A stretch of DNA of 64,000 nt from Actinomycetaceae bacterium (GTDB lineage Bacteria > Actinomycetota > Actinomycetes > Actinomycetales > Actinomycetaceae), in NCBI GenBank assembly GCA_030538185.1, contig JAUNUK010000004.1, positions 62,001 to 126,000 of the forward strand. Reading direction: 5' to 3'. Shown here piece by piece: positions 37,677-55,182 of the stretch. A program made the position numbers and the translations under genes. Below the pieces are notes generated by a model, which saw only the letters and a list, made by a program, of their open reading frames with translations, made no database searches and had not been told where the DNA came from. The first letter of the stretch is position 1; every line of letters starts with the position of its first letter.

Positions 37677-37790
37677 GCGCCGCGCAGTGCTTTTTTGCGC
37701 GGCGATAATCCGCCGCGCGTCACTCGCGATTTTGCGAAAAACGCGGTTTTCGCAAAATCTATTTCACAAAACCCTGGGCAGAGCCTGAAC
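37677..37790. repeat. REP-like palindromic repeat, dispersed copy
   Basis: About 110 bases homologous to the tandem units at 44801-45150. It holds GCGCGGCG/CGCCGCGC arms and a perfect 13-bp stem GATTTTGCGAAAA (37728-37740) with TTTTCGCAAAATC (37747-37759), then the shared block GGGCAGAGCCTGAAC. Against the 44.8-kb copy the stem has changed on both arms so pairing is kept. Function could be termination after fliW; the wide distribution suggests a mobile palindrome (REP/BIME-like). Confidence 0.85.
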
Positions 37791-37794
37791 TACA

Positions 37795-37850
37795 TATCTG
37801 TGCAACATCGTCACCCCGGATCAACAACGACACACTAACGCCCGCCACTA
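37795..37850. repeat. short repeat related to the ispD insertions
   Basis: Contains ATCGTCACCCCGGATCAACA followed by ACGACACACTAAC and CCGCCACTAATCACAC. The GTCACCCC....AACAACGACACAC core is shared with the segment at 48934-48996 inside ispD, and CCGCCACTAAT recurs at 30382. This copy is intergenic, between the REP-like repeat and purD. The rest of the gap to purD shows no riboswitch or clear promoter. Confidence 0.6.
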
Positions 37851-44789: not shown

Positions 44790-44804
44790 CCACAGGCGGC
44801 TCAG
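44790..44804 (+). repeat. right-hand target duplication (tRNA-Thr 3' end)
   Basis: CCACAGGCGGCTCAG, identical to 43309-43323, which covers the last 12 bases of tRNA-Thr plus three downstream bases. The identity runs three bases further (TGT) if the IS ends are counted as shared. Fifteen bases is at the long end of duplications reported for IS481 elements. Confidence 0.85.
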
Positions 44805-45150
44805 TGTTGGATTGCGCGGCGATAATCCGCCGCGCGTCACTCGCGCTTTTGCGAAAAGTGCGATTTTCGCAAAAGCTAGTTCCAAAGACTGTGGGCAGAG
44901 CCTGAACGCATGGATTGCTTGCGCGTAGATGTCCGCGGCGCGTCAGTGTTGGATTGCGCCGCGATAATCCGCCGCGCGTCACTCGCGCTTTTGCGAAAAG
45001 TGCGATTTCCGCAAAAGCTAGTTCCAAAGACTGTGGGCAGAGCCTGAACGTATGGATTGCTTGCGCGTAGATGTCCGCGGCGCGTCAGTGTTGGATTGCG
45101 CCGCGATAATCCGCCGCGCGTCACTCGCGGAACACACGTGGGCAGAGCTT
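44801..45150. repeat. tandem 142-bp palindromic repeat array
   Basis: Two full 142-base units (44801-44942, 44943-45084) and a third cut off after about 45 bases (45085-45129), which jumps straight to the GTGGGCAGAGC block. Each unit contains GCGCGGCG/CGCCGCGC-type arms and a 13-bp stem GCTTTTGCGAAAA with TTTTCGCAAAAGC (44845-44857 with 44864-44876 in unit 1; one mismatch in unit 2). The array began right beside the tRNA before the IS landed. Related to 37677-37790. No protein is likely despite open frames. Confidence 0.9.
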
Positions 45151-45473
45151 GGAATGTGGGACTTTAGAGTTGTGCAATGGGACACGAAACGGTCACCCAA
45201 GGTTCGCGACTGGCATTAATGCTCCTTTACGTACACCTGTCTGTGTAGCTTTTTTCTTGCTGTTTTTACAATGTCACGCTCAGATTTTCATTAAATCTCC
45301 CACAAAATTTAGGGGTTATGTAAATTCGCTGCCGATATGTAGAACATTTTTGGGTAAGAAATAAATAACGATGTGATTGAACAGGTATCTAGGCTAAGAA
45401 AGAATCGGCTATTATTACTACAACGCTTCGTAATCTGTGACGCGCCAGTCACTCTCTTTGAGGAGGACCACTA

Positions 45474-48220: not shown

Positions 48221-49294
48221 ATGTTTTATAGACTTGCGGACATGGACTTGAACATGTCGGCAGCAAAGGACTCTTCGCCCGCTTTGGCAGGGGCTTTGGC
48301 GGTTTTGACGGCTGCGGGCATGGGGACCCGGCTGGGCTTGGAGATGCCGAAGGCACTGGTTCCTGTGGGGCAGGCTGGTGTTCCGATGGTTCTGGCGGCT
48401 GCGCGCAGCATGGCTGCGTCGGGGCTGTTTCGTGCGATTGTTGTGACTGTCCCTCCAGGTTTTGAGTCCGATTTTCAGGCCCTATTCGACGCGGAAGGCG
48501 CCTGGGCCAATCCGAGCCCCGTGAGCCCAACAACGTCCCCCTCGAACAACAACGACACCTGCGAGCACCAACTTCACCCCGAACCCTTAGCACCCACCAC
48601 TAATGTGTCGATATTCCCCCCAGGTGACGAAATTTCGTCACCCTCGAACAACAACCAGCTGCTGGAATCACAAGATAAATCTGTATTGCAATCCGTGCCA
48701 TTTGTTGTAATTGTGGCGGGTGGGGCCTCGCGGCAGGCATCGGTTGCTGCTGGTCTGCAGGCCCTAGAGGCTTTTACACCCCAGGACAAGACCCCTGTTT
48801 TAGTTCATGATGCAGCCAGGTGTTTTACGCCTACGGCGGTTTATGACCGGGTTGTCAATGCCGTTCGTGCCGGCTACCGCGCCGTCATCCCCGTATTACC
48901 GGTGTCCGACACCATCAAGGTCCTCACCCCCAGTGCTAATGCGACCATGTTGCCTCGCGGTGACCAAACACCGTCACCCCAAGCTAACAACGACACACTA
49001 ACCACACCGCCCAGCCATGCACTGCCACTTTCACCCCCAGAATTAGTGGGTGGAACTGTCGACCGAAACACACTGCGGGCGGTACAAACGCCTCAGGGAT
49101 TTGAGTGGGGGCTGCTTGGGCGGGCACACCGTCAACTAACCGCCCTCGGCAATGAAGAAACTACTGCAGCCAGCGACGATGCTGGCCTGGTTGAAGCCTT
49201 GGGCGAAAAAGTTTGGATGGTCGAGGGCGCACCCGAAGCCATGAAGATAACAACCCCGTGGGACCTGGAAATCGCCAAAGCCCTGTTTGCGTAA
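48221..49294 (+). CDS. ispD: IspD 2-C-methyl-D-erythritol 4-phosphate cytidylyltransferase with two insertions
   Basis: 357 residues against about 230 normally. Core motifs are complete: AVLTAAGMGTRLGLEMPKAL (CTP-binding), VIVAGGASRQASV, VLVHDAARCF, VIPVLPVSDTIK, GTVDRNTLRAVQTPQGF and the late GAPEAMKITTPWDL. Two extra stretches, about 93-155 and 235-278, are Ser/Pro/Thr/Asn-rich and related to each other (see 48598 and 48934). Makes CDP-ME in the non-mevalonate isoprenoid pathway; IspF is 1.6 kb downstream. Start uncertain: ATGs at 48221, 48242 and 48254 all lack a clear ribosome site. Confidence 0.9.
   Translation: MFYRLADMDLNMSAAKDSSPALAGALAVLTAAGMGTRLGLEMPKALVPVGQAGVPMVLAAARSMAASGLFRAIVVTVPPGFESDFQALFDAEGAWANPSPVSPTTSPSNNNDTCEHQLHPEPLAPTTNVSIFPPGDEISSPSNNNQLLESQDKSVLQSVPFVVIVAGGASRQASVAAGLQALEAFTPQDKTPVLVHDAARCFTPTAVYDRVVNAVRAGYRAVIPVLPVSDTIKVLTPSANATMLPRGDQTPSPQANNDTLTTPPSHALPLSPPELVGGTVDRNTLRAVQTPQGFEWGLLGRAHRQLTALGNEETTAASDDAGLVEALGEKVWMVEGAPEAMKITTPWDLEIAKALFA
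48598..48660 (+). repeat. in-frame palindromic repeat inside ispD, copy 1
   Basis: CACTAATGTGTCGATATTCC followed by the perfect 20-base palindrome GGTGACGAAATTTCGTCACC (48623-48642) and CCTCGAACAACAACCAGC. The last block also appears just upstream at 48534-48552 (GTCCCCCTCGAACAACAACG). Together these make up insertion 1 of IspD and stay in frame. Confidence 0.75.
48934..48996 (+). repeat. in-frame palindromic repeat inside ispD, copy 2
   Basis: TGCTAATGCGACCATGTTGC, then GGTGACCAAACACCGTCACC (imperfect palindrome, 48959-48978), then CCAAGCTAACAACGACAC. It aligns base by base with copy 1 without gaps for over 40 bases, and is translated in the same frame: ANATMLPRGDQTPSPQANND against TNVSIFPPGDEISSPSNNNQ. 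Confidence 0.75.
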
Positions 49295-50908: not shown

Positions 50909-51391
50909 GTGACTATTCTTAGGATCGGCCAAGGCTTTGACACTCACGCCTTCGACTCCCCCGAATCCCAACGCCCTATGTGGCTTTGTTGTCTGTACTG
51001 GCCGGACATCACAGGTTTGGCTGGTCACTCAGATGGGGATGTGGCCGCCCACGCCTTGTGTGACGCCTTGCTGGGCGCGGCCGGCCTGGGCGATTTGGGG
51101 TCAAACTTTGGTGTGGACCGCCCGGAGTTCAAGAATGCCAGTGGCGAGACCTTCCTCGGCGCAGTGCGCACCATGCTTTCCGAGGACGGCTGGTCGGTCA
51201 TCAATGCCACAGTCAGCGTGATCGGCAATGAACCCCGCATGGGCCCGCGTTACGAAGAGTGCCGCGCGCGCCTGTCGGACCTGGTGGGTGCCCCAGTTGC
51301 GGTGTCGGCGACTACGACCGATCACCTGGGGGCCTTGGGGCGCGGTGAAGGCTTAGCCGCTATGGCGACTGTTTTATTAGAGCGCAGTTAA
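50909..51391 (+). CDS. ispF: IspF 2-C-methyl-D-erythritol 2,4-cyclodiphosphate synthase
   Basis: 160 residues from a GTG. Metal ligands D11 and H13 (GQGFDTHAF) and H48 in GHSDGDVAAHALCDALLGAA; then IGNEPRMGP and the C-terminal SATTTDHLGALGRGEGLAAM. It cyclises CDP-ME-2P in the same isoprenoid pathway as IspD. The loop between residues 16 and 38 (DSPESQRPMWLCCLYWPDIT) is unusual, with two adjacent Cys. Confidence 0.95.
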   Translation: MTILRIGQGFDTHAFDSPESQRPMWLCCLYWPDITGLAGHSDGDVAAHALCDALLGAAGLGDLGSNFGVDRPEFKNASGETFLGAVRTMLSEDGWSVINATVSVIGNEPRMGPRYEECRARLSDLVGAPVAVSATTTDHLGALGRGEGLAAMATVLLERS

Positions 51392-54947: not shown

Positions 54948-54978
54948 CCCTCATCCCTGCCCCCTGGCCAACACCATC

Positions 54979-55015
54979 ACCAGGTGACCTTGTTCCCCCA
55001 GGGTGACCAAGTCGC
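54979..55015 (+). repeat. GGTGAC-type repeat remnant after rlmB
   Basis: CACCAGGTGACCTTGTTCCC followed by CCAGGGTGACCAAGTCGCC. The TTCCCCC..GGTGAC..AA...GTC layout resembles the ispD copy at 48610-48642. It occupies the first part of the 331-base rlmB-pstS gap; a PHO box occupies the last part. No gene is seen in the rest of the gap. Confidence 0.4.
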
Positions 55016-55182
55016 CAGACACGAGGGTCTGTTACCTCACATTTATGGCTCGCACGCACCACTTTCGCGCGCCCTTCGCAAACACACACAAGAACACTTA
55101 CAGTCTGTGACCCCGCAGTTCACCTCAGAAAAACATCCACCAATACACCGCCCTCGGCAATCTTTAAAAACCCCACGCGCGC

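Follow-up and report, generated by a model that had tools for sequence, protein, structure and literature searches.

Palindromic repeats joined to reading frames

Protein-coding palindromic repeats have so far been discussed mainly in Rickettsiales and in some REP-rich Gram-negative species. RPEs and WPEs, intragenic REPs, and some MITEs join open reading frames in frame (PMC3767692, PMC2229807, PMC3733652, PMC10969869). A Rickettsia guanylate kinase that carries an RPE is active (PMC2229807), and intragenic REPs sometimes encode 20-82 residues within open reading frames and sometimes supply stop codons (PMC3733652). A limited open-access literature search returned no actinobacterial example, which is weak evidence of absence.

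The repeat described here interrupts ispD twice in a window of 64,000 nucleotides (the whole stretch of DNA analyzed) from a member of the Actinomycetaceae. It appears to be an independent actinobacterial case, in which two housekeeping genes carry three in-frame insertions between them. On this evidence, essential enzymes of unrelated lineages can acquire new loops from selfish DNA. The best explanation, with a probability of roughly 0.78, is a lineage-specific, non-autonomous, REP/MITE-like palindromic repeat of 13-bp motifs that is tolerated in surface loops when in frame. A single genome contains the parent form of 78 bp together with intermediate arrays and copies within coding sequence, a compact system for measuring insertion tolerance with IspD assays.

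RPEs and WPEs resemble the ispD family in being dispersed palindromes that occur between genes and in frame within conserved genes, at solvent-exposed positions, and a pseudouridine synthase gene has been invaded in Rickettsia as well as here (PMC3733652, PMC3767692, PMC2229807). Two RPE features are found in the ispD family: (i) the copies are palindromic, dispersed, and multiple, and (ii) they lie in frame at loops of conserved proteins. However, RPEs and WPEs are ~100-150 bp long and belong to another phylum, whereas the ispD family reaches at most 78 bp, is composed of 13-bp units at 19/14-bp spacing, and occupies ~22 loci, three within genes. REPs (GTAG, CGTC) are likewise short palindromes in dimers or clusters that lie mostly between tandem or convergent genes (PMC3733652). 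Yet the genome has no RAYT gene and no GTAG/CGTC-tagged simple stem-loop has been established; on inspection, the consensus carries TAGTGTG at one end and no clear tag-and-stem arrangement (GTAG/CGTC, 20-40-bp stem-loop). The TIR repeats of TIRYTs (GGGGWSAS) share dimers and clusters with the ispD family, whose GGGGTGAC fits the motif (PMC3733652); this match is weak evidence because the motif is short, and no Y1 transposase was found in the genome. MITEs (ERIC, RUP, Correia/NEMIS) are also small, non-autonomous-looking, and in some cases fused in frame to open reading frames (PMC2229807, PMC10969869), but for the ispD family neither clear terminal inverted repeats with a target-site duplication nor a parent IS has been established.

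No defining sequence feature or enzyme ties the ispD family to RPEs, WPEs, REPs, or MITEs. Its likeness to RPEs and intragenic REPs appears to be functional, the comparison being one of descriptions rather than of aligned RPE sequences. The IspD matches place the genome with actinobacteria, and the family is not classed as an RPE. The Rickettsia elements, named as the nearest parallel when the DNA was read on its own, are a good functional analogy, but the parallel is broader, since REPs and MITEs that lie in frame within genes have been described from other bacteria too (PMC3733652, PMC2229807).

The interrupted ispD gene and its product

ispD (48221..49294, + strand; start possibly at 48242 or later) is a single uninterrupted open reading frame of 357 codons, into which extra sequence is inserted in frame twice. 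Its 357-aa product is identified as IspD by Pfam (E 1.6e-45), a PDB sequence match, and the predicted fold, which resembles mycobacterial IspD with target-normalised TM scores of 0.85-0.93. The core retains the residues that are invariant in 28 actinobacterial homologues, those of the HDAAR and TPQ motifs among them, in agreement with the sequence-only reading, in which the catalytic motifs were intact. Anchor-to-anchor lengths in 29 relatives place the excess at two sites: site 1 spans 89 residues (median 24, range 19-45 in relatives, which thus lack insert 1) and site 2 spans 51 (median 21, range 11-58). The total excess over these relatives is ~95 residues; the protein is oversized as first suggested, but by less than the 125 residues then given. 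The structure prediction proposed at that point for the loops (AlphaFold, 29 sequences) yields a confident IspD core with low confidence at both inserts, with pLDDT <50 at model residues 92-140, i.e., most of insert 1, and ~54-65 around residues 231-260.

Both inserts are recovered by a covariance model (R1) built from seven intergenic copies alone, with no ispD sequence, and each scores above all 2000 dinucleotide shuffles (0/2000) against the intergenic copies, as does a third insert in an rluA-type gene. The earlier proposal that related palindromic elements lie in frame, twice, in ispD, and that the inserts are related at the DNA level, is thereby borne out. Neither of the two outcomes named beforehand as counting against it was seen: relatives do not have the insertions in common with this genome, and further copies occur elsewhere in the genome. 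Insert 1 (48512..48690, +; boundaries approximate) adds ~55-65 residues and reads WANPSPVSPTTSPSNNND...SNNNQLLESQDKSVLQS. It is compound. A head-to-tail array of three tandem units on the - strand (48528..48578; starts 48528, 48547, and 48566; 19-bp period), kin to a short element at 37801, is accompanied by a second, partial palindromic copy on the - strand (approximately 48601..48666; R1 E 6.8e-6) that reads TAATGTGTCGATATTCCCCCCAGGTGACGAAATTTCGTCACCCTCGAACAACAAC on the + strand; the perfect 20-bp palindrome GGTGACGAAATTTCGTCACC lies at 48623-48642. Insert 2 (48926..49045, +; boundaries approximate) adds ~30 residues in the loop after DTIK. Its palindromic element is partial and comprises most of one element (48940..49000, +; R1 E 4.3e-11); it reads MLPRGDQTPSPQANNDTL, with the palindrome GGTGACCAAACACCGTCACC at 48959-48978. 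The best match to this segment is an intergenic copy at C1:117443-117520 (58 ungapped bp), and the exact site-2 20-mer also occurs at C1:117465. Portions of both inserts, e.g., 49000-49045, match no repeat.

The two palindromes are the only GGTGAC-N(2-14)-GTCACC sites in the window (shuffle mean 0.04). The sequence-only reading described two stretches read in the same frame. The two sites and the shared frame of the central palindrome (GGT GAC ...) hold; insert 1, however, is an array plus a partial copy, and the two palindromic copies have mutually opposite orientations relative to the full 78-bp element. Two relatives (G019, G020; L133, L135) carry longer, seemingly unrelated loops at site 2, which may thus be insertion-tolerant family-wide. 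Because the site-2 loop varies in other species, DNA homology is diagnostic there and length is not.

A short distance downstream, the MEP-pathway gene ispF (50909..51391, +; Pfam YgbB E 9.8e-50) is uninterrupted. No second IspD was found in the genome, the sole other match to the ispD query being a repeat copy, and a genome search that detected its positive controls found no HMG-CoA reductase. Isoprenoids should therefore depend on this IspD. Given the intact core, the predicted floppy inserts with their low AlphaFold confidence, and the absence of both a second IspD and an HMG-CoA reductase, the interrupted ispD is probably functional; the insert peptides themselves would probably be functionless.

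A dispersed family of 13-bp units

The full intergenic form of the element is 78 bp long (consensus GTGCAACATCGTCACCAGGTGACCTTGTTGCCTCGGGGTGACCAAACACCGTCACCCCGGANCAACAACGACACACTA). Copies of its 13-bp unit, GGTGACSNTGTTS, follow one another head-to-tail at 19-bp intervals and head-to-head at 14-bp intervals, forming palindromes. The element loci examined contain 20 head-to-tail pairs at 19 bp and 18 head-to-head pairs at 14 bp. Secondary spacing peaks lie at 26, 33, and 45 bp, and none of the peaks is seen in 163 kb of background. The full form combines an outer unit whose start has diverged (TAGTGTGTCG) with two pairs, a central one that makes GGTGAC-N8-GTCACC and a head-to-head one that makes GTCACC(A/T)GGTGAC. 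Unit number and arrangement vary among loci. Frame 1 of the + strand is open end to end, and + frame 2 stop-bearing, in 7/7 full-length intergenic copies; the remaining frames are mostly stop-bearing. Insert 2 of ispD is read in + frame 1, whereas insert 1 and the rluA insert come from truncated copies, each read in another frame that avoids the stops. This usage fits selection of in-frame survivors, not a dedicated coding role.

Across the 2.42-Mb genome, R1 gives 43 overlapping matches on both strands, at ~20 places that include both ispD sites and the rluA-type gene, and the pattern GGTGACNNNGTTSC gives 40 matches vs 9 for its control. Other GGTGAC...GTCACC variants, likewise element cores, lie at C1:221031, C4:14807, C6:171767, and C6:270849. 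In total, ~22 loci are known, 19 of them intergenic or at gene ends and three within genes. A simple codon-usage gene call places ~12 loci between tandem genes; a further 5 lie at convergent 3' ends and 2 where genes diverge. Within the window, the intergenic copies include the short form GTGCAACATCGTCACCCCGGATCAACAACGACACACTA (37801..37840, +), with two units at 19-bp spacing, and a copy at 54966..55034 (+; C6:116966-117034; E 7.7e-5). Another copy (C4:76651-76677) provides the final codons and TGA stop of the open reading frame C4:75269-76669 and overlaps the end of a convergent one.

The third in-frame insertion, new relative to the sequence-only reading, which had ispD alone, lies near the N-terminus of an RluA-type pseudouridine synthase (C1:67084-68208, - strand; L163:3082-4209). 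The protein reads MPRSPLPARAGFGASWLRTPDAPAT, then ~50 residues including repeat sequence, then MLDFVVSCV; relatives are nearly continuous across this point, e.g., MPPRSPLPQRHGLDAAWIRTPGTAADAPAPWATMRDFLAARL. R1 finds the copy at E 1.3e-5. Conserved N-terminal residues precede the insert, and the choice of start site is uncertain. In all, ispD has two insert regions and the rluA-type gene has one, each of them stop-free and in frame.

The search covered 213 genomes of the bacterial family, from 36 genera, with no further species of the host genus among them, and the other 212 yield no R1 match at E<=0.001. One weak match in G025 (E 0.0016; 59 genomes, family and order) was taken as chance. The repeat family is dispersed, mostly intergenic, and, within the sampled genomes, confined to the host species.

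Origin and regional setting of the copies

The dispersal of the copies, their lineage restriction, and three coding insertions absent in relatives suggest that the copies were mobile; the genomes compared include none of the same genus that could show a DNA-level empty site. The copies may have been inserted by a mobility function acting in trans, a lost or unrecognised mobilising enzyme being the simplest assumption. Genic insertions would have survived only where an open frame of the element joined that of the host and the added peptide came to lie in a loop at the surface, leaving enzymes active with disordered extra loops. The search for a mobiliser covered Y1 (PF01797) and IstB (PF01695) transposases. 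A RAYT parent was rejected because the genome has no PF01797 match, i.e., no RAYT-type Y1 transposase, although positive controls were detected. An IS21-type parent, suggested by repeated end-like motifs, was rejected because the genome has no IstB; its sole PF01695 match is a 486-aa frame that, from its weak score and length, is probably dnaA-like. The flanks inspected show no obvious target-site duplication, and the element ends are not sharply bounded. Plasmid and viral records contain no close copy: a 27-bp match to a Sinorhizobium plasmid is weak (E 2), the core palindrome has no exact match in viral contigs, and 35 matches to a short end pattern are probably chance.

All 22 loci lie on C1 (68-405 kb), C4 (14-77 kb), and C6 (100-271 kb), and C2, C3, and C5 (788 kb) have none (P ~2e-4 for 22 independent random loci). 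Random transposition does not account for this clustering. The contig ends stop in rRNA- or tRNA-like repeats, which leaves contig order unsettled, so the element-rich zones are not claimed to be contiguous and the clustering is a lead rather than a claim about a chromosome domain. The same 39 bp, from the 3' half of a tRNA, stand at the starts of C1 and C6 (L215, L233) and may mark an integration site or a break in the assembly.

It is unlikely that the elements form a protein-invading palindromic class peculiar to an actinobacterial lineage, built of 13-bp units at set spacings, restricted to one part of the chromosome and spread by some means of transfer, whose arrays add loops to essential enzymes and may also mark the region as binding sites. 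The fixed 19/14-bp geometry would suit a multimeric binding protein, the GTGAC...GTCAC arms are reminiscent of the E. coli matS site, and the loci occupy three of six contigs, all of which would fit a DNA-binding protein, either a regulator or an organiser of the chromosome, with the units as its 19-bp-spaced half-sites and the copies in ispD and rluA falling in coding DNA by chance. That explanation is nonetheless unlikely, given ~12 tandem and 5 convergent loci against only 2 divergent ones (no promoter pattern), unit numbers and arrangements that differ by locus, and related genera that lack the sites; moreover, operators need no ~60-residue protein expansion. A role mainly in RNA, as hairpins at transcript 3' ends with the coding copies as by-products, is quite improbable. 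Many copies do lie downstream of genes, and one, folded as single-stranded DNA, forms a strong hairpin (z -9.4), but compensatory change is scarce: covariation barely exceeds that of shuffles, a weak sign of RNA-level selection despite the strong fold, and no Rfam match to the window copies was found.

Two further explanations concern ispD itself. Its insertions amount to ~95 residues in a ~235-residue protein, a load that could suggest a decaying gene, inactivated by insertion and open by accident. This is very improbable with conserved catalytic residues, neither another IspD nor an HMG-CoA reductase found, and three insert regions in two genes that are all stop-free and in frame. Ordinary lineage-specific loop expansion with chance resemblance to the repeat would agree with the variability of site 2 and the longer, unrelated-looking loops of G019 and G020, but is extremely improbable: the model E of 4e-11, the shuffles, and the third in-frame case in another gene refute it for the element-matching parts, and only unmatched parts such as 49000-49045 could have arisen in this way.

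A second dispersed family is found nearby. In order, its components are a GC-rich hairpin, GCGTCACTC, another hairpin, in which pairing is kept although the stem sequence varies between copies, and TGGGCAGAGCCTG. Copies lie at 37678-37790 and, three in tandem, at ~44795-45200 of the window, and elsewhere at L164:3742, L173:3065 and 3168, and L233:87. Two of these copies are within ~100 bp of an ispD-family copy.
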